A stretch of DNA of 63,869 nucleotides from an uncultured Methylococcaceae bacterium. Its GTDB lineage: Bacteria; Pseudomonadota; Gammaproteobacteria; Methylococcales; Methylomonadaceae. The position numbers and the translations under genes were made by a program. The notes under the pieces were generated by a model. That model was not told the DNA's origin, ran no database searches, and saw nothing but the letters and a program-made list of their open reading frames with translations. The stretch covers positions 1-63,869 of the forward strand of contig CAIYRS010000017.1 in the NCBI GenBank assembly GCA_903928685.1. The letters run 5' to 3'. Positions 32,033 through 53,396 of the stretch are shown here, in pieces; within the stretch, counting starts at the first letter, position 1, and each line of letters opens with the position of its first letter.

Positions 32033-33397
32033 ATGCTTAACTATTCATATAACCCATTCAAAAACGCCCTAGAAGAAATTGATGGTTCTGATTTGCTCTT
32101 ATTGAGAGACGTTGCAGAAGGCTGGTATGTTGACTACAAATCCCTAGGGCTAAAAATTGATGACTATGGAAAACACTTGGCTGCTTTTGCAAATCAATAC
32201 GGCGGCTGGCTTATTATTGGAGTTACTGAGAAAAATGATGGTTCTCGGACTGCGGACAAGTTTGTTGGAATACACAATGCGGACGTAGAAAAAATTTCTC
32301 TTCAACTAAGGGAAGCTGCGGCAAGCCATGTCAACCCAACAGTTTTATATGAAGAAAAAATAATAAAAGGGCCAATTGAAGAAATCGAATTAGAAAATGA
32401 TAAGTCTATTATCATCGTAGGCATACCTAGAAGCCTTAATACGCCTCATATACATTCATCAGGGCGAATTTATCGGCGACTTGCTGACCAATCTAAGCCA
32501 AAAGAAGAGACAGATAGATTTATCCTTGATGAGTTGTGGAAACGTGGAAATGAACATCAAAAGAATGTAACCCAGTTCCTTACTCAAATACCACGATTAC
32601 CAGAAAAACAATCAAATTCAACATGGGCGCATATATTTTTTAAGCCTAGCGAAAGCCAATTACCACCTAAAAAAGATTTAGAATTTAACCAGTTTTTAGA
32701 CATTGTAACTAATGCGAACGATTGCGTGACCAGCCCTTATGCACCGATGCAAGCAATACATACAACTGCAAAAGGTTATGTGGCTAGACAAATTGAAAAT
32801 AATGACCCTAGCTTAGCAGCATTAGCAATAAACTGGTTTAATGATGGAAGTGTTAGGCTCGACATACCATTGAACTGTTACGATATGCCTAATTTTTTAG
32901 AAACCCATGACAAAAATCAATTTGCTGAAGAATATTGCCGGATAGCATATGAAGCTGGTTATCGAAACATGGAAATTGTGGATTTTTCGATATTTGTTAA
33001 GATTCTAGCGGCACTTTCAAATTGCTACCTTCACATGTTGGAGGCTATTGACGATAAACGTGACATTTATTCCTGCTTTACTCTACGTAATGTATTTTAT
33101 ACTTCTCCTTATGTGGATTCAGCGAAGTTTATTGAAAGGATAAAAAAATTTTCACTACCATTAACGACGGAACAAGAAATTGTATTTCCTCAAGAACCAA
33201 CAGATGAAAATATGTTTTTGCATGGAATAGAAAGACCAAGCAGTTATGAAGAAATTTTCCCCTTACCTATCATGTTTGTATTGCCCATTGTTTTCAAGGT
33301 GTTCAATTCGGTTGGCATTGTTCAAGATATAGAAACTTTTGCAAGCGATATAGACGCATGGGGATTTGGCAAGAGTAACGATGAGGCCAACCGATAG
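32033..33397 (+). CDS. AlbA_2 (Schlafen-type) domain protein
   Basis: A 454-residue protein whose first 150 residues match the AlbA_2 nucleic-acid-binding domain (formerly AAA_4). The family core YVDYKSLGLK is followed by GKHLAAFANQYGGWLIIGVTEKNDG and IIIVGIPRSLNTPHIHSSGRIYRR. The remainder has no domain I recognise, no membrane segment and no obvious catalytic motif. Codon use is AT-richer than in adjacent genes, and the gene is flanked by repeats on both sides, so horizontal acquisition is likely. AlbA_2 proteins include transcription regulators and some anti-phage components. A role cannot be chosen from sequence. Confidence 0.75.
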   Translation: MLNYSYNPFKNALEEIDGSDLLLLRDVAEGWYVDYKSLGLKIDDYGKHLAAFANQYGGWLIIGVTEKNDGSRTADKFVGIHNADVEKISLQLREAAASHVNPTVLYEEKIIKGPIEEIELENDKSIIIVGIPRSLNTPHIHSSGRIYRRLADQSKPKEETDRFILDELWKRGNEHQKNVTQFLTQIPRLPEKQSNSTWAHIFFKPSESQLPPKKDLEFNQFLDIVTNANDCVTSPYAPMQAIHTTAKGYVARQIENNDPSLAALAINWFNDGSVRLDIPLNCYDMPNFLETHDKNQFAEEYCRIAYEAGYRNMEIVDFSIFVKILAALSNCYLHMLEAIDDKRDIYSCFTLRNVFYTSPYVDSAKFIERIKKFSLPLTTEQEIVFPQEPTDENMFLHGIERPSSYEEIFPLPIMFVLPIVFKVFNSVGIVQDIETFASDIDAWGFGKSNDEANR

Positions 33398-33463: not shown

Positions 33464-33479
33464 TGTCATAAAACCAACA
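33464..33479 (+). promoter_or_regulatory. NifA upstream activating sequence (TGT-N10-ACA)
   Basis: TGT at 33464-33466 and ACA at 33477-33479 are separated by exactly ten bases, the NifA operator pattern. Its centre lies 63.5 bases upstream of the first G of the -24 element at 33535. A near-match to the IHF consensus (AATCAAACAGATA, one mismatch, 33506-33518) lies between the two, where DNA bending is needed. Confidence 0.75.
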
Positions 33480-33533
33480 AAACACCTTCCTTTAAATCCC
33501 ATATAAATCAAACAGATAATTTATTAAAAAACT

Positions 33534-33549
33534 TGGATTACTTCTTGCT
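33534..33549 (+). promoter_or_regulatory. sigma-54 promoter of the SIR2-SagB operon
   Basis: TGGATTACTTCTTGCT contains GG and GC dinucleotides separated by ten bases and a perfect TTGCT -12 element. The -24 element departs from TGGCA at two positions. The expected start site is near 33560, about 26 bases before the first ATG. An AAGGAG ribosome binding site follows at 33574. Confidence 0.75.
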
Positions 33550-33585
33550 TAAAGCCTTACTATTTAAGCCTTCAAGGAGTTTTCC

Positions 33586-34449
33586 ATGACATCCGCGCTG
33601 TTTTCCCAAATCTTAGACGGTCTTTACGACAACAAAATCGTTCCCTACCTTGGCGCTGGCGTATTGTTTGATGCCAGTAATAAAGCTACCGGACAAGCCA
33701 TGCCCGCCACCAGCGACAGCTTGATTTTGGCGATGAACAACGGGCAACCGATGGCACCCAAATTAATGTACGAATTCCCCCGTGCGGCGATGAACTTGGA
33801 GCTGAAACGCGGGCGCAATTTCCTCAGCCAATTTCTCACCAAAACCTACGGCGAAACCGAATGGACACGCGCCGCCATCCACGAATGGCTAGCCAATTGG
33901 AAGCCCGCGTATGTGATTGATGTCAACCGTGACACGCAATTGCAAGACAGCTATGCCGATGAAGAACATACCTTAATCGTCGGCGTTGCCCGCATCACCG
34001 CCAGCCAATTCCGCTATCGGATTTATCATTTTGATGGCAACCATTATTTTGAAATCACCCAAGACCAAGTCGATCCGCGTCTGCCTGTGTTGTTTAAACC
34101 AATGGGAACGCCGAAACCGGAAGCCAATTTTGTCGCCTCCGATGCCGATTATGTCGATTACATCACCGAACTGATGGGCGGTTTTGCCATCCCCGAATTT
34201 TTGAAAAATTACCGCAAAGACAAGCAATACCTGTTTATAGGTTTGCGCCTGAACCGCGATTCCGAGCGCATGGTGATGGCGGACATTATCCGCGATGGTG
34301 GCGAACCGAAAGGCTGGGCGTTGATTAAAAACCCAACCGATAAGGAAATCCGTTATTGCAAAAAAATCGGCTTGGAAATTGTTGATGCCGATGTCGCGGA
34401 TTGGTTGGACGTAGTGGGTTTTGCTTGTGAGCAGAAGCTGACAGCCTAA
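33586..34449 (+). CDS. SIR2-like domain protein, first gene of a NifA-type operon
   Basis: A 287-residue protein with the SIR2_2-type Rossmann opening NKIVPYLGAGVLFDA near residue 15. Later segments are typical of the SIR2-like family: LPVLFKPMGTPKPEANFVAS, DADYVDYITELMGG and KQYLFIGLRLNRDSERMVM. Where sirtuins have the catalytic His in a KLHG-like motif, this protein reads KPMG, so deacylase or NADase activity by the usual mechanism is doubtful. The strong AAGGAG site supports the start. It follows a sigma-54 promoter with a NifA site, so I infer expression under nitrogen-fixing conditions. Confidence 0.78.
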   Translation: MTSALFSQILDGLYDNKIVPYLGAGVLFDASNKATGQAMPATSDSLILAMNNGQPMAPKLMYEFPRAAMNLELKRGRNFLSQFLTKTYGETEWTRAAIHEWLANWKPAYVIDVNRDTQLQDSYADEEHTLIVGVARITASQFRYRIYHFDGNHYFEITQDQVDPRLPVLFKPMGTPKPEANFVASDADYVDYITELMGGFAIPEFLKNYRKDKQYLFIGLRLNRDSERMVMADIIRDGGEPKGWALIKNPTDKEIRYCKKIGLEIVDADVADWLDVVGFACEQKLTA

Positions 34450-34455
34450 GTTTTT

Positions 34456-34543
34456 GTAGGATGGGCTGAACGAAGGGAAGCCCATCAATACGCCCAATCG
34501 ATGGGGTTCGCTCGGTGGGCAGAACAGCGTTGCCCACCCTACC
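34456..34543. repeat. two abutting palindromic repeats in the SIR2-SagB operon
   Basis: GTAGGATGGGCTGAACGAAG with its partial partner is joined to a GGTGGGCAGAACAGCG...TTGCCCACCCTAC repeat. It occupies half of the 181-base gap between the SIR2-like and DUF364 genes. No second promoter is evident. Confidence 0.65.
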
Positions 34544-34630
34544 TTGGTTTTCTATCGGTATCGTCACCCAACATGGACTTTTCAGGTTTTAAAAATCTAA
34601 ACGGCCTTTTTAACGCTTGATGGATAAATT

Positions 34631-35587
34631 ATGACCAACCCCAATCACCTCTACGAACTCCTACTCGATTCCTGTAGCAGCCAAACCCAAGCCGACCGTA
34701 TCTTAATCGGCTTGGTGTGGACGCTTTGCCAAGATGACCAGCAAGGCACGACGGGATTGGCGATGAGTCCGGCTATCGCCACCCGCACCTTGCCGTGGTC
34801 TGGCACGTTAACAGGCAAACCGATCACCGACTTAGCAGCGTGGATTGTCGATTGGGAGCCTTACAAATCCACAGTGGCGATGGCGGCGATCAATTGTTGC
34901 CTAAATGCTCGTGCCTTACCGGAATCGGTGTTATTGCCTAGCCATTCTGAACACCCGAATCTGACGGTTTTCGAACATTTTCTGCCGCAAATCCAAGGCA
35001 AAAATGTGGTTGTGGTTGGGCATTATCCCGGCATCGAGCGTTATCAAAAGCAAATGCAATTGACGGTGTTGGAAAGGCAGCCCCAACCTGGCGATTTGCC
35101 CGATGCCGCCGCAGAATTTCTGTTGCCCAAAGCCGATTGGGTGTTTCTCACCGCCAGCTCGATTCCCAACAAAACTTTTCCGCGCTTGGCGGAATTGGCA
35201 AGCAACGCCAAAACCGTGTTGATGGGGCCGACTGTGCCGTGGTTGCCGCAATTGCATGAATTTGGCATTGATTATCTGGCAGGTGTGGAAGTGGTCGATG
35301 CCCATGCCTTGTACCATACCGCCGCGCAAGGTGGCGGGGTGCGAATTTTTGCCGACGGTGTGCGTTACCGCGTCGCCGAACTTACGCCAACACACAGCAT
35401 GGCTTGGCTGAAACAACAGATCGCCGACTGCGCCGCCGACAAACAGCGCTTAACAGCAGAGATGGAAACGTGGTATGGCGCGGGTAATAGCCGTCGTTTT
35501 CCGTCGTATCGGTTATTGGAAGAATGCAATACCCGATTGTCGCGTTTGGATAGTAGTTATAAATTGTTGTGGGATCAACGCGATTGA
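34631..35587 (+). CDS. DUF364/DUF4213 Rossmann-like protein
   Basis: A 318-residue cytoplasmic protein. The N-terminal part (LIGLVWTLCQDDQQGTTGLA, DLAAWIVDWEPYKSTVAMAA) matches DUF4213. The C-terminal part (GKNVVVVGHYPGIERYQ, ADWVFLTASSIPNKTFPRLA, KTVLMGPTVPWLPQLHEFGI, DYLAGVEVVD) matches DUF364, annotated as a putative heavy-metal chelation domain. A C-terminal helical tail is extra. Metal or cofactor handling is a family-level guess, but it is attractive in an operon with NifA control and an Fe-S protein. Confidence 0.8.
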   Translation: MTNPNHLYELLLDSCSSQTQADRILIGLVWTLCQDDQQGTTGLAMSPAIATRTLPWSGTLTGKPITDLAAWIVDWEPYKSTVAMAAINCCLNARALPESVLLPSHSEHPNLTVFEHFLPQIQGKNVVVVGHYPGIERYQKQMQLTVLERQPQPGDLPDAAAEFLLPKADWVFLTASSIPNKTFPRLAELASNAKTVLMGPTVPWLPQLHEFGIDYLAGVEVVDAHALYHTAAQGGGVRIFADGVRYRVAELTPTHSMAWLKQQIADCAADKQRLTAEMETWYGAGNSRRFPSYRLLEECNTRLSRLDSSYKLLWDQRD

Positions 35588-35639
35588 TGCGCCTCCTGTC
35601 GTCGGCACATCCTATAACGACCGCAAATTTAATTCCGAT

Positions 35640-35716
35640 GTAGGATGGGCTGACGGCAGGAAGCCCATCATTAATTCGCCTAGTTTGATGGGCTTCCTAT
35701 CGTCAGCCCATCCTAC
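35640..35716. repeat. GTAGGATGGGCTGACG palindromic repeat
   Basis: Left arm GTAGGATGGGCTGACGGCAG and right arm ATCGTCAGCCCATCCTAC, in the 158-base gap between the DUF364 gene and the next gene. Same family as 26466 and 45552. Confidence 0.75.
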
Positions 35717-35745
35717 GATGCTAAATTTTGGAAATAAGAGCTCAG

Positions 35746-36189
35746 ATGAATACCAATAATCTATTCCAAAACCACCGCTTACTGCTTTATTACAAAGGCG
35801 ACATCAGCGCCTTGATGCTGTTTGCCCAACAAGCCAACGGCAGCGTGTGTTTTCCAACCGCTTTACCTTTGCTATCCAGTGCTTTAGAGCAGGAAGCATT
35901 TGAAAACAGCAAAGTCAGTCTGCATCCGTCAGTGTTGGTCAATGCTATCAACCAACATTTCCAACTCGATAATGACTTGCTTCAAGTCGAAGCGGGCTTT
36001 AGCGAGCAAATCGACACACCCAGTGGCATCATTACCGTCCACATGGCGCGGTTTAAGTTGCTAGACCCACCGCATCAATTGTTGCAAAGCCGTGAGTGTT
36101 CACTGAAAACCTTACCCGAATTGCGCGGCAGACCGCCCGCTGAAATGGAATTGTTGCGCCGCGCTTATGTGCAAGTGATGGAGGGTTGA
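35746..36189 (+). CDS. hypothetical protein, 147 residues
   Basis: Soluble protein with no signal peptide. The N-terminal half reads LLLYYKGDISALMLFAQQAN, and the conserved-looking C-terminus is KTLPELRGRPPAEMELLRRAYVQVMEG. The middle (FSEQIDTPSGIITVHMARFK) suggests beta strands. I do not recognise a family; a degenerate Nudix-like fold is conceivable but no Nudix box is present. Its stop is one base from the ATG of the Fe-S protein gene, whose GGAGGG ribosome binding site lies inside this gene, so the two are tightly coupled. Confidence 0.7.
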   Translation: MNTNNLFQNHRLLLYYKGDISALMLFAQQANGSVCFPTALPLLSSALEQEAFENSKVSLHPSVLVNAINQHFQLDNDLLQVEAGFSEQIDTPSGIITVHMARFKLLDPPHQLLQSRECSLKTLPELRGRPPAEMELLRRAYVQVMEG

Positions 36190-36190
36190 T

Positions 36191-37423
36191 ATGTTTGATT
36201 TTATGGACATGGATTTTAACGGCAGCACACCCACGCCATCTGCCGGGACCTACATTCCCGAAGCCAGCGATTGTATGCGTTGTGGGGTATGCGTGAACAT
36301 CTGCCCGACTTACCAACTTTTCCAAACCGCCGAAGAAACCCCGCGCAACCGCATCCGCACCATCAACAAAATCTTGCTGGAAAACCAAACCATTTCCGGT
36401 GACGAACAAAAACATTTGGACAATTGCCTGCAATGCCGCGCCTGTGAAACCGTTTGCCCCAGCAAAATGGCTTACGGGGAATTGATCGATCTAACTCAAG
36501 CGCAATTGCCAAACACACCCAATTGGCTAGGCAAACTGGCGTTTGGATTAATCGCCAACAAACGCTGGCGGCAACGTTTAATGCCTTTACTAACGTTGTA
36601 TCTGGCATCGGGTTTGCGGAAACCTTTGCGCTGGACGGGCTGGTTGAAAAAGTTACATTTAGCTGAGGTCGAAGCTTTGTTAACCAAGCCGTCATTACAA
36701 AGTTTGGCGCGGCAATATCCCGCCACCCGTACAACGCGCGGACAAGTCGCCTTGTTCACAGGCTGTATAGCCGAACAGTTCGACCAAGACACTTTGCAAG
36801 CGGCAATCAAATTGCTCAACGCCATGGGTTACGATGTGATTGTTCCGCCTGAACAAGGCTGTTGCGGCGCAATCCACCAACATAACGGACAATCCGCCGC
36901 TGCGTTGATTGCCAATAATGTCAACGTATTCAATGCTCTGGATGTCGATGCCGTACTCCATGCCGCAACGGGCTGCGGTGCGATGTTAAGCGAGTATCAA
37001 CAGGAAGATAACGATGCCGTGGCAACCTTTAAGACACGTTTGCAGGACATCAACGCCTTTGTGCTGGAGCATTGGCCTGAGGATTTACACTTGCAGCCGT
37101 TGCCGGAAACCGTTGCTGTCCATGAGCCATGTAGCCAACGCAATATCTTAAAAAACCAGCAAACCGTTTACGATTTGTTAGCAAAAATCCCGCAACTGCA
37201 CATCATTGCGTTAGCTGATAACGCCCAGTGTTGTGGTGCAGGCGGCAGTTATATGCTCACCCATCCTGAAAACGCTCAACGGTTACGCGAGCTAAAACAC
37301 CAAACGATTGCCGCCGCCCAAGCCGATTGGCTAGTCAGCAGCAATTTTGGTTGTGCGGTTTTTTTGCAAATAAACGGCGTAAAATTTGTGCATCCATTGC
37401 AGTTAGTTGCGCGGCAATTGTAG
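36191..37423 (+). CDS. GlcF-like Fe-S protein with two CCG domains
   Basis: A 410-residue protein of the glycolate-oxidase/heterodisulfide-reductase Fe-S family. Two 4Fe-4S ferredoxin motifs (CMRCGVCVNICPTYQL and CLQCRACETVCPSKMAYGEL) are followed by two cysteine-rich CCG domains (FTGCIAEQ...EQGCCGAIHQHNG and VHEPCSQRN...NAQCCGAGGSYML). It is close in length to GlcF (~407), but no glcD or glcE flavin subunit is nearby. It may instead transfer electrons to or from the SagB-like flavoprotein or the products upstream. The GGAGGG site is strong. Confidence 0.88.
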   Translation: MFDFMDMDFNGSTPTPSAGTYIPEASDCMRCGVCVNICPTYQLFQTAEETPRNRIRTINKILLENQTISGDEQKHLDNCLQCRACETVCPSKMAYGELIDLTQAQLPNTPNWLGKLAFGLIANKRWRQRLMPLLTLYLASGLRKPLRWTGWLKKLHLAEVEALLTKPSLQSLARQYPATRTTRGQVALFTGCIAEQFDQDTLQAAIKLLNAMGYDVIVPPEQGCCGAIHQHNGQSAAALIANNVNVFNALDVDAVLHAATGCGAMLSEYQQEDNDAVATFKTRLQDINAFVLEHWPEDLHLQPLPETVAVHEPCSQRNILKNQQTVYDLLAKIPQLHIIALADNAQCCGAGGSYMLTHPENAQRLRELKHQTIAAAQADWLVSSNFGCAVFLQINGVKFVHPLQLVARQL

Positions 37424-37481
37424 GGTACGCTGTGCGTACCTTTTCCATCGATATTTAAAAGGTACGCACAGCGTACCCTAC
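37420..37481. repeat. GTAGGGTACGCTGTGCGTACC palindromic repeat
   Basis: The arms GTAGGGTACGCTGTGCGTAC and GTACGCACAGCGTACCCTAC are perfectly complementary and enclose about 22 AT-rich bases. It begins at the stop codon of the Fe-S gene and ends 14 bases before the SagB-like ATG. A second copy is at 46725-46800 between rnfD and rnfC. Confidence 0.8.
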
Positions 37482-37495
37482 CAATCGGCACAATC

Positions 37496-39091
37496 ATGAA
37501 CCCACAATCCACAACGCTACTAAATTACCATCAACGCACCAAGCACACCCTGCAACGCTACGCCAAAGGCCCGGAAACCATTGATTGGGAAGACCAACCC
37601 GATCAATTCCGACGATTTCCCGGTTGCCAGCCTGTGCCATTACCCGCACCGGGACAAGATTTGCCAGTGCGTTTTGCTGATCTTGACCAGCCACAAAACA
37701 TCCCCGCGCAAGCGTTATCCATAACCAGCATTGGCCTATTGTTAGAATTGGCGTTCGGTTTGTCGGCATGGAAACAATACGGCCCCAGCCGTTGGGCGTT
37801 GCGCTGTAACCCCTCCAGCGGCAACTTGCACCCGACCGAAGCCTATCTAATAGCCTCCGATAACCACATTGTCCCCGCTGGCGTTTACCATTATTTAAGC
37901 CATGACCACCTGTTGGAACAACGCGCCTGTTTTGTTGATACGACTACCGAATCCGCGGTTTTCATCGGCTTATCGTCAGTACATTGGCGGGAAGCGTGGA
38001 AGTACGGCGAACGCGCGTTCCGTTATTGCCAGCACGACATCGGTCATGCTGTGGCGGCGCTACGTTATGCGGCAGCTTGTTTGGGCTGGTCTATTGATAT
38101 TTTGTTCGAAGCCGCTGATGCCGACCTCGCCGCCCTGCTTGGTTTAGTCAGGCACGAGGATTTCAAGCACAACGAGCAAGAATCGCCCGATGTGTTATGC
38201 CGTATTCAAATTAGCGGACAAGCGGCGATTAGCTATCAACATTTATTCGCCTTGTCTGCTTCCGCGACATGGTTCGGCAAGGCGGAGAGTTTAAAAGCCT
38301 ACCATTTATATCATTGGCCTATCATTGACGAAGCCGCCGCAGCCGCGCACAAACCTGAAACGCAAGAAAGCCCTTGGCAAGCTGCCTTGCAACCGCCCTT
38401 ACCTACCGCTTGTGGCAAAACCACCAGCCAAATCATCCGCCAACGCCGGAGTGCACAACAATTCGATGGCAAAATGCCCGACCTTCCCGCTGCGGATTTT
38501 TACCGGATGCTCAGCGCGGTCATGCCGGATGCGCCTGCTTTTGGCTGCTGGCAAACCGCGCCCAAAGTGCATTTGTTTGTGTTCGTGCATCGGGTCGCAG
38601 GTTTAACGCCGGGCTTGTATGTGTTGCTGAGGGATACGGCTAGTTTGGCGGCTTTGCAATCTGCAACGGCAAACGCGTTTGACTGGCAAAAACAGCATGA
38701 GTCGCTGCCGTTTTATCATTTGCATTCGGGCGATCTCAAACAAATCGCCAAAACCTTATCCTGTCATCAGCCCATCGCCAGCGACAGCGCCTTCAGCCTA
38801 GGCATGGTCGCGGAATTCAGTACCACCGTACAAGCCGCGCCCTGGCAATATCGGCGGCTATTTTGGGAATGCGGTTTTATCGGGCAAGTGCTGTATCTGG
38901 AAGCGGAAGCAGCAGGCGTGCGTGGCACGGGAATCGGTTGTTATTTTGATGACAGCGTCCATGAAATTTTGGGCATTACCGATGATACTTGGCAAAGCCT
39001 ATACCATTTCACCATCGGCAAACCGCTGGAAGACAGCCGATTACAAACCTTGCCGCCTTACAGCCATTTAGAAGCTTACGTTACTGCGTAA
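37496..39091 (+). CDS. SagB/ThcOx-type dehydrogenase with two nitroreductase domains
   Basis: A 531-residue flavoprotein. The N-terminal nitroreductase-like domain shows RWALRCNPSSGNLHPTEAYL and FRYCQHDIGHAVAALRYAAA. The C-terminal copy shows IIRQRRSAQQFDGKMP, WQYRRLFWECGFIGQVLYLE and GVRGTGIGCYFDD. Both fit the FMN-dependent SagB family, whose known members oxidise azolines to azoles in peptide toxins. No YcaO cyclodehydratase or precursor peptide is nearby, so the substrate here is probably different. It is the last gene of the operon. No strong ribosome binding site is visible, and the preceding hairpin may affect translation. Confidence 0.83.
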   Translation: MNPQSTTLLNYHQRTKHTLQRYAKGPETIDWEDQPDQFRRFPGCQPVPLPAPGQDLPVRFADLDQPQNIPAQALSITSIGLLLELAFGLSAWKQYGPSRWALRCNPSSGNLHPTEAYLIASDNHIVPAGVYHYLSHDHLLEQRACFVDTTTESAVFIGLSSVHWREAWKYGERAFRYCQHDIGHAVAALRYAAACLGWSIDILFEAADADLAALLGLVRHEDFKHNEQESPDVLCRIQISGQAAISYQHLFALSASATWFGKAESLKAYHLYHWPIIDEAAAAAHKPETQESPWQAALQPPLPTACGKTTSQIIRQRRSAQQFDGKMPDLPAADFYRMLSAVMPDAPAFGCWQTAPKVHLFVFVHRVAGLTPGLYVLLRDTASLAALQSATANAFDWQKQHESLPFYHLHSGDLKQIAKTLSCHQPIASDSAFSLGMVAEFSTTVQAAPWQYRRLFWECGFIGQVLYLEAEAAGVRGTGIGCYFDDSVHEILGITDDTWQSLYHFTIGKPLEDSRLQTLPPYSHLEAYVTA

Positions 39092-48874: not shown

Positions 48875-49249
48875 ATTTTTTTGTCCACGAAAAGCACGAA
48901 AAAACACGAAAACATTAATTTCGGTGGCTTATAGGATGTGCCGACGATAGGAGGCGCATCTGTCGAGTTGCTCGAACGATGCGTTTCGATACCCTCGTTC
49001 CCAAGCTCTAGCTTGGGAATGCCGTCTAGGAAGCTCTTGCTTCCTGTCATTCTCGAAGCTAGAGCTTCTGAAACTTGGGTTATCAAGCCAGAGCTTGGTA
49101 ACCAGCAAAGCCGTTATTTAGTTTATTTGTAGGATGGGCTGACGTAAGAAAGCCCATCGAACCTATAACCACCGATGGGCTTCCCTTCGTTCAGCTCATC
49201 CTACTTTCAAATTTTTTTCGTGTCTTTTCGTGTCTTTCGTGGACAAAAA
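48875..49249. repeat. composite nested repeat between rnfA and rnfB
   Basis: Outer CACGAAA arms (48875-48912 and 49211-49249) enclose a multi-hairpin CCAAGC cluster (about 48989-49106) and a GTAGGATGGGCTGACG palindrome (49129-49204). No gene lies in this 396-base gap. It ends at the base before the rnfA stop codon. Confidence 0.78.
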
Positions 49250-49871: not shown

Positions 49872-49887
49872 AGCAGTAACTATGCCA
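49872..49887 (-). promoter_or_regulatory. sigma-54 promoter of the rnf operon
   Basis: On the minus strand it reads TGGCATAGTTACTGCT. The -24 TGGCA is perfect, the -12 is CTGCT (one mismatch to TTGCT), and GG and GC are ten bases apart. Expected transcription starts near 49861, about 30 bases before the rnfA ATG. Confidence 0.82.
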
Positions 49888-49941: not shown

Positions 49942-49957
49942 TGTGGTGAATCAGACA
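49942..49957 (-). promoter_or_regulatory. NifA upstream activating sequence, proximal
   Basis: TGT and ACA are separated by exactly ten bases (TGTGGTGAATCAGACA). The centre is 63.5 bases upstream of the -24 GG of the rnf promoter, or about -89 from the expected start. This is the same spacing as at the SIR2-SagB operon. Confidence 0.8.
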
Positions 49958-49998: not shown

Positions 49999-50166
49999 AA
50001 ATATCAACAAAGCAGTTAGCATGTAGGGGCGATTTTCCGCGCCTGTTTTCGGTAAACGGTCGTGGCTACGGCATTTTTCGCCGACGCGACGAGGATTTTC
50101 TTGCTGGCGTTAATTTTGCATAGCCCATTACATAGCGATGATTCCACCCATTCCCCAGGCCGTGAT

Positions 50167-51852
50167 ATGAAAAAATCTTCCCTGCAATTCTTACAAGAAC
50201 ACACCGCAATGGTGACCATGATGGATGAACTGGCTCCTACAGTTTTTGGCGGTGCGGCGCTTGCACAAGGCCCGATGCCTTACCACCTGTTTGTGGAAAC
50301 GGTTGAGCAAGTGCCTATTGCCATTTCCATTACCGACAAAAAAGCTAAAATCCTCTACGTTAATCAAGAATTTACCCGTGTTACCGGGTATGAGCCGGAA
50401 GATATTTTGGGCGAGAATGAATCGGTGCTGTCCGACAAACGCACACCACGCGCCGTCTATTACGATTTATGGCACACCATCCGCAACAAAAAAGTTTGGC
50501 GCGGTACGCTGTGCAACCGCCATAAGGAAGGCCGCCGTTATATCGCCGATTTGACCATTGCGCCGATGCTCGACGAACAAGGCACCATCACCCATTACAT
50601 TGGTATGCACCGCGACATTACCCAAGCCCACGAGGCCGACCAGCGCGTCATCAACCAGAAATTGTTGATTGAGTCGGTCATCAATTCTTCACCCATGGCG
50701 ATGGTGGTGGTGGATGATGAAGATAAAGTCATTCTCGATAACCACAATTACAAAACACTGGTCAGTGATCTCGACAAAGGCGAACCCGCCGCTTATTTTT
50801 TGCAGCTATTGCGGGAAGAAATGGGCGAAGAATGGGCGCAATTGCAAAGCCACGAACAAGGTTTCAACAACCGCGAATTCCGTATCGAAGGCAAACCAGG
50901 CCGCAGAGCGCGTTGGTTTTCTTGCGCGGGTAATTGGTTTAAGGAAAAAGAAGCCCATGCTGATGCGTTTTTCGACAACACCGCCAAACCCTATTTGGTA
51001 TTGACCATTACCGACATCACCCGGCAACGGCGGCAAATGGAAGAGCTGCACATCCAAACCCTAAAAACCATCATGTCTGAAGACGAACGCGTGCGCGGCA
51101 TTCGGGAAACGCTGTTGGGTGCAATTCATCAAATCCACATGCCGATGAACCAGATCAAGGCGGCGGAACAAATCCTCAAACATAAAAACGACGCCAATAC
51201 CGCAGGCCTGCTGCAAATCCTGCAACAAATCCAGCAGTCCGGCGAAGAAGCCATCGCCACCATGCAAAACTGTGTGCCTGAGGTGTCGCAATCCACCTTG
51301 GTTGCAGTCAACCTCAACCAAATTTTGCACGAAGTGTTGTTGCTTAACGACCAACGCATTTGGAGCCAAGGCATTGACGTGCATTGGCGGCCTTTGGCAG
51401 AACTGCCCAATATTTTAGGTTCGGAAAACCGCTTGCGAGTGTTGTTCAACCAATTGCTGGACAACGCCATCGACGCAGTCAGCGATTCGTTAACAGGCGA
51501 GCATCGTATCCGTATCAGCACCGATGCCGATAGTGAATTGCTTTACGTCAGCATTGAAGATTCTGGGCCAGGCATTCCGGAAGAAAAACGTAGCCGCGTG
51601 TTCGAACCGTTTTACACCACCCGCGCCAATGGCGGGCAAAAAGCGGGCATGGGCTTGGTGATTGCTAAAGAAATCGTCACACAACATCATGGTTTTATTG
51701 ATATTGACCCTAATTTTGACCCAGGTTGCCGGATTAAAATCAGTTTTCCTTTATTGCGCGATGTTGGTAGTAATCAATTTATCATTCGCGAAAGCTGCCG
51801 TTATCAGCCCATCAATGCCAGTAATAAACAGGCGTTGGAAGGGGGCGGCTGA
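50167..51852 (+). CDS. nifL: nitrogen fixation negative regulator NifL
   Basis: Redox- and nitrogen-sensing anti-activator that inhibits NifA by direct contact. The 561-residue protein has PAS1 (about residues 40-150), the FAD-binding sensor, with VEQVPIAISITDKKAKILYV and YEPEDILGENESVLS. PAS2 (about 165-290) contains PMAMVVVDDEDKVILDN. A kinase-like part follows, with the H-region IHQIHMPMNQIKAAEQI, NQLLDNAIDAVSD, EDSGPGIPEEKRSRVFEPF and GMGLVIAKEIV. NifL binds adenine nucleotide but does not phosphorylate NifA. I favour the ATG at 50167; later Mets at 50209-50221 are possible. Its stop overlaps the nifA ATG (TGATG). Confidence 0.93.
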   Translation: MKKSSLQFLQEHTAMVTMMDELAPTVFGGAALAQGPMPYHLFVETVEQVPIAISITDKKAKILYVNQEFTRVTGYEPEDILGENESVLSDKRTPRAVYYDLWHTIRNKKVWRGTLCNRHKEGRRYIADLTIAPMLDEQGTITHYIGMHRDITQAHEADQRVINQKLLIESVINSSPMAMVVVDDEDKVILDNHNYKTLVSDLDKGEPAAYFLQLLREEMGEEWAQLQSHEQGFNNREFRIEGKPGRRARWFSCAGNWFKEKEAHADAFFDNTAKPYLVLTITDITRQRRQMEELHIQTLKTIMSEDERVRGIRETLLGAIHQIHMPMNQIKAAEQILKHKNDANTAGLLQILQQIQQSGEEAIATMQNCVPEVSQSTLVAVNLNQILHEVLLLNDQRIWSQGIDVHWRPLAELPNILGSENRLRVLFNQLLDNAIDAVSDSLTGEHRIRISTDADSELLYVSIEDSGPGIPEEKRSRVFEPFYTTRANGGQKAGMGLVIAKEIVTQHHGFIDIDPNFDPGCRIKISFPLLRDVGSNQFIIRESCRYQPINASNKQALEGGG

Positions 51853-53396
51853 TGCGCGAACGAACCGAACTGATCGAAGCTGAACTGGACACGCTCTACC
51901 TGATTAGCCAAGTGCTGAACAGCACCCACGACTTGCACACCAAATTGCAGGCGGTGCTGGAAGTGCTGCACAAACGCTCAGGGATGCGTTCCGGCATGAT
52001 TACCCTAAAAGAAATCGAAAACGACAGCCTGATTGTCAGCGCCGTGCACGCCAACGCCGACAGCCAATTGCAACAGCCGATTCGCTACCATCCCGGTGAA
52101 GGCGTGATGGGCGCGATTTTGGACGCAGGCAGTACCATTGTCGTGGAAAAAGTGGCGGAAGAACCGCGCTTTTTGGGGCGTATGGGCTTGTATGATCCCG
52201 AATTGCCGTTTATCGGTTCGCCCATTTACATCGAACAAGGCGACACCATCGGCGTGTTGGCGGCGCAACCCGACGACAACTTGTTTCTTGGCGAACGCGC
52301 GCGTTTTTTGGAAATGATCGCCAATTTGATCGCGCAAAGCGTGAAAATGCTGCGGGTTATCGAACGCAAACAACGGCATTTGCAAAGCGAGCGCGACCAA
52401 CTTAAACAGGCGTTAATCAAAAATTACCGCTTTGAAAACATCATCGGGCATTCCGCGCCGATGCTGAAAGTCTTCGAAACTATCCGCCAAGTTGCCAAAT
52501 GGAACACCACGGTATTGATACGCGGGGAATCCGGTACGGGTAAAGAAGTGGTCGCCAATGCCATCCACTTTAATTCCGGTTGCGCCAGTGGGCCGTTTTT
52601 AAAACTCAACTGCGCGGCTTTACCGGACACTTTGCTGGAATCGGAATTGTTCGGGCATGAAAAAGGCGCGTTCAGCGGCGCAATCAACCAACGTAAAGGC
52701 CGTTTTGAATTGGCGAATAACGGCACTTTATTTTTGGATGAAATCGGCGAAATCTCCGCGTCATTTCAAGCCAAACTGCTGCGCGTCTTGCAAGAAGGTG
52801 AGTTTGAACGCGTCGGTGGCACGCAAACCATTAAGGTTAACGTCCGCATCATCGCCGCCACCAACCGCAATCTGGAAGAAGAAGTCACCGAAGGCAAATT
52901 CCGTGAGGATTTGTATTATCGTCTTAACGTTATGCCCATCAACATGCCGCCGCTACGCGACCGTAGCGAAGATATTCCGGCACTTTCAGAATTTTTGCTA
53001 AGCCGCATTTCCGAACAACAAGGCGGACGGCCTTTGGAAATTAAAGAAAGCGCGATCCGTATCCTGATGAAACACGACTGGCCCGGCAATGTACGCGAAT
53101 TGGCAAACTGTCTGGAACGCGCAGCGATTATGAGCCCTAACGGCAGCATAGACCGCGATGTGATGGTCAACACGGGTTTGGAAAGTGTTGTTTCGCAAGC
53201 CGGACTCATCAGCAAACCGCAAAAACTGCAATCGGTGGATTTTAGTGATGAAAATTTAGATGACCGCGAACGCGTGATTGCCGCCTTAGAACAAAGCGGT
53301 TGGGTGCAAGCGAAAGCGGCAAGGTTGTTGAATATGACGCCACGGCAAATCGCTTATCGGATAGCGACTTTGGAAATTACTATGAAGCAGATTTAG
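51852..53396 (+). CDS. nifA: Nif-specific transcriptional activator NifA
   Basis: 514-residue sigma-54 activator. A GAF domain (about 25-170) is followed by the AAA+ domain with Walker A GESGTGKE (Gly225-Lys231), the sigma-54 contact loop GAFSGA (272-277, Ser replacing the usual Thr), Walker B TLFLDEIGE and RLNVMPINMPPLRDR. A C-terminal Fis-type HTH reads VQAKAARLLNMTPRQIAYRI. The linker has no Cys-rich motif, as expected for NifA proteins controlled by NifL rather than by oxygen directly. Two operons in this window carry its TGT-N10-ACA sites. Confidence 0.95.
   Translation: MRERTELIEAELDTLYLISQVLNSTHDLHTKLQAVLEVLHKRSGMRSGMITLKEIENDSLIVSAVHANADSQLQQPIRYHPGEGVMGAILDAGSTIVVEKVAEEPRFLGRMGLYDPELPFIGSPIYIEQGDTIGVLAAQPDDNLFLGERARFLEMIANLIAQSVKMLRVIERKQRHLQSERDQLKQALIKNYRFENIIGHSAPMLKVFETIRQVAKWNTTVLIRGESGTGKEVVANAIHFNSGCASGPFLKLNCAALPDTLLESELFGHEKGAFSGAINQRKGRFELANNGTLFLDEIGEISASFQAKLLRVLQEGEFERVGGTQTIKVNVRIIAATNRNLEEEVTEGKFREDLYYRLNVMPINMPPLRDRSEDIPALSEFLLSRISEQQGGRPLEIKESAIRILMKHDWPGNVRELANCLERAAIMSPNGSIDRDVMVNTGLESVVSQAGLISKPQKLQSVDFSDENLDDRERVIAALEQSGWVQAKAARLLNMTPRQIAYRIATLEITMKQI

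Follow-up and report, generated by a model that had tools for sequence, protein, structure and literature searches.

The 63,869-nucleotide contig CAIYRS010000017.1 of an uncultured, presumably methanotrophic Methylococcaceae bacterium, referred to in its whole length as the window, carries a candidate operon of five genes behind a promoter of the nitrogen-fixation (nif) type. All five open reading frames (ORFs) named in the original prediction are present (Table 1). They encode a SIR2-like protein, a DUF364 protein, a homologue of the Azotobacter protein NafT, a GlcF-like Fe-S protein and a SagB-type nitroreductase. The window also holds an rnf operon and the nifL-nifA pair, with nifA 12.8 kb past the end of the operon. 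On balance, we read the five genes as a NifA/sigma-54-controlled operon of nitrogenase helper genes. Genomes and loci are given below by our G and L numbers.

Table 1. Features of the operon region and of the related nif and rnf elements in the window
Feature	Position	Strand	Basis
NifA upstream activator site (UAS) TGTCATAAAACCAACA	33464..33479	+	TGT-N10-ACA form; same form plus box in 72/83 upstream regions of relatives
Integration host factor (IHF)-like site AATCAAACAGATA, weak	33506..33518	+	IHF-like sites in 17/84 upstream regions versus 4.5 expected
Sigma-54 -24/-12 box TTGGATTACTTCTTGCT	33533..33549	+	Box in 77/83 upstream regions of relatives
Gene 1, nif-linked SIR2-like protein, 287 aa	33586..34449	+	Pfam SIR2_2, E 1.2e-10; orthologues beside nifH
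Gap with palindromic repeat arms (34455-34476, 34514-34542)	34450..34630
Gene 2, DUF4213/DUF364 protein, 318 aa	34631..35587	+	Pfam DUF364, E 1.8e-40; PDB 3l5o, E 1.4e-28
Gap with inverted repeat (35640-35670 / 35686-35716)	35588..35745
Gene 3, NafT homologue, 147 aa	35746..36189	+	Sequence profile and fold
Gene 4, GlcF-like Fe-S protein, 410 aa	36191..37423	+	NCBIfam GlcF, E 2.6e-60, below cut-off; Pfam Fer4_8 and CCG
Inverted repeat between genes 4 and 5	37420..37481
Gene 5, two-domain SagB/ThcOx-type nitroreductase, 531 aa	37496..39091	+	NCBIfam SagB, E 1.1e-26; PDB 3eo7, E 6.8e-23
rnf -24/-12 box for comparison TGGCATAGTTACTGCT	49872..49887	-	Its UAS at 49942-49957
nifL, likely modulator of the activator (start uncertain)	50062..51852	+	NCBIfam nifL, 614 bits
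nifA, likely activator of the operon	51852..53396	+	NCBIfam nifA, 678 bits

The promoter and its conservation

The sequence upstream of gene 1 has the arrangement of a nif promoter, with a TGT-N10-ACA site some 60 to 150 bases before a GG-N10-GC -24/-12 box. The box TTGGATTACTTCTTGCT keeps the invariant GG and GC, and its -24 half, TGGATT, has three mismatches to TGGCAC. The IHF-like site AATCAAACAGATA has one mismatch to what we take to be the IHF consensus. The original prediction had placed UAS, IHF-like site and box correctly, with the qualifications that the IHF site is weak and the -24 half imperfect. IHF was dropped as a strong promoter element, such sites being found in a minority of the upstream regions. 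The original prediction had also pointed to a UAS spacing of 63.5 bases identical to that at the rnf promoter. This equality is exact but was dropped as evidence: it carries little weight because the spacing varies among relatives, in which the UAS-to-box distance spans 70 to 140 (allowed range, 55 to 140). Directly upstream of the promoter lies a Schlafen AlbA_2 gene (window 32033-33397) without a PADLOC match.

Neither element is in excess on its own in the window. TGT-N10-ACA was found 13 times against 13.9 expected, and loose matching of the -24/-12 box gave 52 sites against 53.6; at up to two mismatches, the operon box is not among the sites returned. In the organism's own genome, the joint pattern of UAS and box occurs 17 times and its reversed form 8 times; the operon site is one of the 17, as are sites immediately upstream of nifE and nifN. 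For the relatives, we used 83 of 84 distinct gene-1 upstream regions (L101, a gene fragment, was dropped), which stem from related genomes and are not independent. The motif TGGN8TTGCW lies between -75 and -35 in 77 of these regions, against 8 of 4,150 first-order random sequences. The box together with TGT-N10-ACA 55 to 140 bases further up was found in 72 regions and in none of the 4,150 random sequences, which excludes a chance promoter. The box is absent from six regions (L096, L100, L124, L128, L167 and L186), and five more have the box with no UAS in range (L156, L180, L181, L183 and L192).

In 80 GTDB loci kept from 402 confirmed stretches, both elements precede 109 of 747 ORFs of at least 200 residues, and judged by position and length, nearly all of the 109 are gene 1 or the divergent nifH. 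The promoter is retained where gene 1 is apart from nifH (the window, G009, G003 and G007). The promoter is conserved across genera, and nif-specific control of the operon by NifA is highly probable. The control by NifA and sigma-54 and the tie to nitrogen fixation that had been proposed for this locus are strongly supported.

The gaps between genes 1 and 2, 2 and 3, and 4 and 5 of the window are occupied by palindromic repeats (GTAGGATGGGCTGA... and GTAGGGTACGCTGTGCGTACC..., at 34455-34542, 35640-35716 and 37420-37481), which look like repetitive extragenic palindromic (REP) or miniature inverted-repeat transposable element (MITE) sequences. Similar repeats, seen by eye only, lie near rnf at about 48930-49200. 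A terminator scan was uninformative (10 sites against 9.3 in shuffled sequences). In the relative L114, the genes are tightly packed, with a gap of 16 bases, two overlaps and a gap of 44 bases.

Gene neighbourhoods and the five proteins

Gene 1 is closely associated with nif genes in the window's relatives. Among 61 genomes near the window, orthologues of at least 63% identity occur in 25, with a fragment in G010 and weak matches (26 to 28%) in four Methylococcus-family genomes. In the window's family (37 genomes), all 23 genomes with nifH over the cut-off have gene 1, and 12 have neither; the remaining two, G010 with its gene-1 fragment and G023 with gene 1, each have a short, possibly fragmentary nifH match. 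Of the 80 loci, 62 had at least 1.5 kb of upstream and 68 at least 1.5 kb of downstream sequence; nifH lies divergent within 4 kb in 42 of the 62, and in 28 of the 68 either gene 2 or gene 3 comes after gene 1. In a sample of 398 genomes of the phylum, strong gene-1 matches were found in six, five of them with nifH over the cut-off and the sixth, G277, with nifE over the cut-off and nifN and nifX by similarity. A divergent type (∼26% identity) is found in 71 plasmid records, 70 of them from rhizobial genera and one from Methylococcus. Two of the 20 records listed were read, and the gene lies directly after nifT in Rhizobium etli p42d and ∼2 kb beyond nifT in Methylococcus sp. EFPC2. By eye, two weaker matches in the phylum sample, in G252 and G462, seem to have a nifB-nifZ-nifT-like neighbourhood, in which no nifH was found.

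On contig C50 of the window's own genome (L076 10456-11331), an ORF that by eye resembles a restriction-type (Mrr-like) gene is divergent from nifH and occupies the place where relatives have gene 1. Contig CAIYDX010000374.1 (L130), titled as a Geobacteraceae metagenome-assembled genome, has a methanotroph-like block of genes 1, 3 and 4 arranged as in L131 and is probably misbinned.

Counterparts of genes 2 to 4 close nifE/N/X clusters in relatives. The fullest order, in G137, is nifE-nifN-nifX-(NifX-associated)-(CCE_0567-like)-fdxB-(2Fe-2S thioredoxin-like)-(TPR)-(127 aa)-DUF364-NafT-GlcF-like. In G031, G138, G186 and G011, DUF364-NafT-GlcF-like likewise comes after nifN and nifX or the NifX-associated gene, and a nifE/N/X-type row ends with NafT in G088 and G046; nifE was not recognised in the G011 and G046 stretches read, and in G030 and G197 no gene 2 was found in the interval from nifX to gene 3. 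In G273 and G277, which belong to a different family of the phylum, DUF364-NafT closes the nifE-nifN-nifX cluster without gene 4, and in G210 a NafT-like gene follows nifE-nifN with no DUF364 found before it. In the Methylococcus family (G057, G075 and G113), DUF364 and a NafT-like gene come after rnf genes, with bacterioferritin recognised in two of the three. The window's own genome has nifH on contig C50 and nifE, nifN and nifX on C70, where the nifN-nifX cluster ends after the 127-residue protein that elsewhere precedes genes 2 and 3. As this cluster stops there and genes 2 to 4 stand behind gene 1, the operon is a join of the nifE/N/X tail with a SIR2 gene. The earlier statement that the five include no standard nif gene needs correction, since gene 3 is homologous to NafT, gene 1 recurs in nif clusters, and genes 2 and 3 close nifE/N/X clusters.

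Ahead of DUF364-NafT, relatives encode two more conserved proteins of this tail (L276 6979-7673 and L289 10909-11613): one is a thioredoxin-like 2Fe-2S protein of 107 residues, and the other, of ∼125 residues, has no confident family assignment. Both deserve study alongside NafT. The 89.6-kb EFPC2 plasmid record (L263 1-48000) carries nifHDK, nifENX, nifB, nifA and rnf genes, together with bacterioferritin, DUF364, a NafT-like gene and a gene-5 homologue.

Co-occurrence with nitrogenase was counted in 201 genomes of the order, taken from a larger group. Gene 3 occurs in 90 of 106 nifH-positive and 5 of 95 nifH-negative genomes, counted at E up to 0.001 and including distant matches (27 to 43%) in the Methylococcus family, some of them outside recognisable nif clusters. 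Gene 5 occurs in 100 of the 106. The original prediction would have been undermined by operon genes in many non-diazotrophs; gene 3 passes this test, and gene 5 passes it weakly. The five nifH-negative genomes with gene 3 are G172, G124, G130, G146 and G060, of which G124 and G130 have fragments of the gene, and no nif genes were recognised in the 17 to 18 kb read in G146 and G060. In the phylum sample, the gene-3 profile matched 4 of 398 genomes: the window's own, G210 and G273 (nifH) and G277 (nifE).

The G172 locus (L273) is a nif remnant: its nifE is of normal size, its nifN is cut to 193 residues, gene 3 has an in-frame stop, and nifH was not found. This looks like decay of NafT along with nif. 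NafT-like genes of 35 to 48% identity in G060 (L272), G094 (L280) and G146 (L274), where no nif genes were recognised, are possible paralogues with another role.

Neither Pfam nor NCBIfam assigned a family to gene 3, which had been listed as an unknown 147-residue protein. By sequence profile and by fold, it is homologous to Avin_01560, the NafT of Azotobacter vinelandii. All 11 aligned sequences retain Ser14 of the published interface with the MoFe protein, and the C-terminal helix is likewise conserved. In gene 2, the Pfam domains DUF4213 and DUF364 are both over their cut-offs, and both match PDB 3L5O (residues 7-246). Homologues of gene 2 on plasmids were found in 10 records, nine from Azospirillum (∼30%) and one from Methylococcus. 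Gene 4 scores 204.5 bits against an NCBIfam GlcF cut-off of 333, GlcF still being the best equivalog by E-value, and its 16 cluster cysteines are invariant in 18 sequences.

Gene 1 has a SIR2 fold by Pfam and by model. The AlphaFold model is poor (predicted local distance difference test [pLDDT] score, 60), and its matches show the fold and no more; a PDB sequence search with the gene-1 profile gave no match at E up to 1. Sirtuins carry a catalytic His-Gly. In gene 1, the corresponding stretch, mapped by eye, is K-P-[M/L]-G, with no His in 45 of 45 aligned sequences, while Asn114-Arg-Asp is invariant in the 45; the R. etli and Methylococcus copies are also without the Asn. We doubt catalysis because of the missing His, and gene 1 is probably not catalytic.

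Gene 5 is the least certain member of the operon. It is over the NCBIfam SagB cut-off (93.4 against 78.4 bits) and, in the loci read, stands directly behind the operon only in the window, G009 and G018. Gene-5 homologues also occur on Aromatoleum, Paraburkholderia and Methylocella plasmids, and no nif genes were found in the three stretches read (12 records matched).

Proposed role and competing readings

Since gene 3 is a NafT homologue, we propose that the operon acts in maturation or repair of the MoFe protein, a role to which we give about an even chance. The original prediction spoke of a redox or cofactor module switched on with nitrogenase; the nitrogenase part of this stands, whereas the module wording is vague, and the NafT core points to MoFe maturation or repair. 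NafT was identified in 2023 on homocitrate-deficient nitrogenase and, in Azotobacter, binds MoFe protein lacking homocitrate (PMC9968304, PMC11612016). In the proposed mechanism, NifA would bind the UAS and open the -24/-12 promoter at times of nitrogenase synthesis. NafT would dock at the Fe-protein surface of MoFe protein with a FeMo-cofactor from which homocitrate is absent or has been lost, and keep it out of turnover until the cofactor is inserted or re-set. The DUF364 protein could handle a metal-binding small molecule for the cofactor step, and the GlcF-like protein could supply or remove electrons, perhaps with the flavin nitroreductase of gene 5. The SIR2-like protein may be a nucleotide-binding regulator or helper, probably non-catalytic. 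The promoter, the homologies, the linkage to nif and the origin of the operon as a join are supported by the present data, whereas the roles of genes 1, 2, 4 and 5 and the co-transcription of all five are what we infer; the palindromic repeats that fill three of the gaps make a single five-gene transcript in this organism uncertain.

Several results weigh against reading the locus in this way. The gap repeats might end transcription early. In the order, 16 of the 106 nifH-positive genomes have no gene 3, and 18 of the 95 nifH-negative ones carry gene 5. Among 38 nifH-positive genomes of the phylum sample, only five have a strong match to gene 1 and only three a match to gene 3, which suggests that the gene set is confined to some lineages or that NafT diverges past the reach of the profile. 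His11 and His95 of the proposed NafT metal site occur in 0 of 10 aligned homologues, and His9 is Tyr in 25 of 25 sequences of the window's family and His in 7 of 7 homologues outside it, which suggests that the proposed site is not a general feature. This histidine cluster (His9, His11 and His95) is not treated here as defining for NafT because the papers call its metal role speculative. Those papers also call the function of NafT unknown. The published nif-linked SIR2 proteins Rcc03262, PST_1325 and ZMO1821 are likened to gene 1 by annotation and location only. Finally, a NifA promoter of its own was found in 0 of 37 copies of gene 5 (one from a like operon, in G009, and eight from nif clusters of other lineages; L183, with no usable start, was left out), and separate regulation of gene 5 by NifA was dropped as a reading.

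This last result bears on the alternative that only genes 1 to 4, or gene 1 alone, are driven by NifA, with gene 5 encoding an unrelated flavin enzyme that came to lie downstream. The few loci in which gene 5 directly follows the operon, its presence in nifH-negative genomes and the repeats in the gaps of the window all fit this alternative, yet gene 5 accompanies nearly all nifH-positive genomes of the order and sits inside nif clusters elsewhere, beside nifZ in G046 and G273 and ∼3 to 6 kb from nifH in Methylococcus-family genomes. We regard it as unlikely, though worth keeping in view. A general metal or redox operon merely used by diazotrophs, and not specific to the MoFe protein, would agree with the published link of DUF364 to metal transport (PMC2954201) and with the generic families of the GlcF-like protein and the nitroreductase; it is improbable given that gene 3 is a NafT homologue, that genes 2 and 3 close nifE/N/X clusters and that presence in the order tracks nifH.

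Gene 1 has itself two possible readings of a different kind. In Zymomonas, a SIR2 protein of the nif island (ZMO1821) is up under N2 fixation, NifA and nitrogenase are acetylated, and a deacetylase role has been proposed, according to PMC8600466. Gene 1, with its SIR2 fold, could by analogy be a lysine deacetylase regulating the acetylation of nitrogenase or NifA, but the His-less K-P-[M/L]-G stretch, albeit mapped by eye, and the R. etli and Methylococcus copies without the Asn make this distinctly improbable, and a deacetylase function of the SIR2 gene of nif clusters is in doubt. An NAD-consuming anti-phage effector in a defence operon is hardly credible: PADLOC models matched 0 of 6 proteins at E up to 0.01, upon which this reading was dropped, the nif location and the promoter are conserved, and conservation is strong (mean column identity, 80%).

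Within the preferred reading of an operon of nitrogenase helpers, a bolder version can be put forward only as a long shot. Genes 2 to 4 would form a dedicated FeMo-cofactor rescue system in which NafT clamps homocitrate-lacking MoFe protein, DUF364 delivers a replacement Mo ligand or carrier and the GlcF-like protein re-reduces the cluster, with a catalytically dead SIR2 protein as gatekeeper through its binding of NAD(H) or some other nucleotide. If true, this would be a nitrogenase repair pathway, none having been described in the literature found.

The operon belongs among the nif accessory operons. NafT gains partners: DUF364 precedes it at the end of the nifE/N/X cluster in two families of the order and another of the phylum, and the Fe-S protein follows it in the window's family. 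Whether cells repair or re-load MoFe protein becomes a question approachable through these genes. Known families account for four of the genes, and the remaining one is a member of the NafT family; their combination, the link between DUF364 and NafT and the SIR2-led operon are new to the open-licence literature found, as far as its accessible text goes. In that literature, no paper was found that treats DUF364 together with nitrogen fixation or nif, and none, in the text accessible, in which NafT is connected with DUF364 or with an operon led by a SIR2 gene.

Comparison with known systems

In a Methylosinus strain, NifA motifs and -24/-12 boxes are reported before nif operons; the genes of the present operon are not mentioned there under the terms searched (PMC12727197). 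The GlcF-like protein resembles GlcF, the Fe-S subunit of glycolate oxidase, in its 4Fe-4S and CCG domains but differs in its score below the cut-off and in having no adjoining flavoprotein partner in the window, and is thus GlcF-like rather than GlcF. Published context analysis ties DUF364 (PDB 3L5O) to transport of metals and chelators (PMC2954201), whereas gene 2 precedes NafT in nif clusters.

SIR2-like proteins near nifH or nifT or in a nif island, as with gene 1, are known from Rhodobacter capsulatus (Rcc03262), Pseudomonas stutzeri (PST_1325), Zymomonas (ZMO1821) and R. etli p42d, the last 25.8% identical to gene 1. Published annotation puts SIR2 beside nifT in Rhodovulum and Rhodobacter and beside nifH in P. 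stutzeri. In R. capsulatus, a SIR2-family protein of nif cluster A was detected in the wild type and not found in a nifA1-nifA2 mutant, according to PMC6925177. The NafT of A. vinelandii (Avin_01560; PDB 8ENO and 9CJF) is ∼25% identical to gene 3, which has Tyr for His9, Gly for His11 and no His at the place of His95 and stands in a SIR2-led operon.

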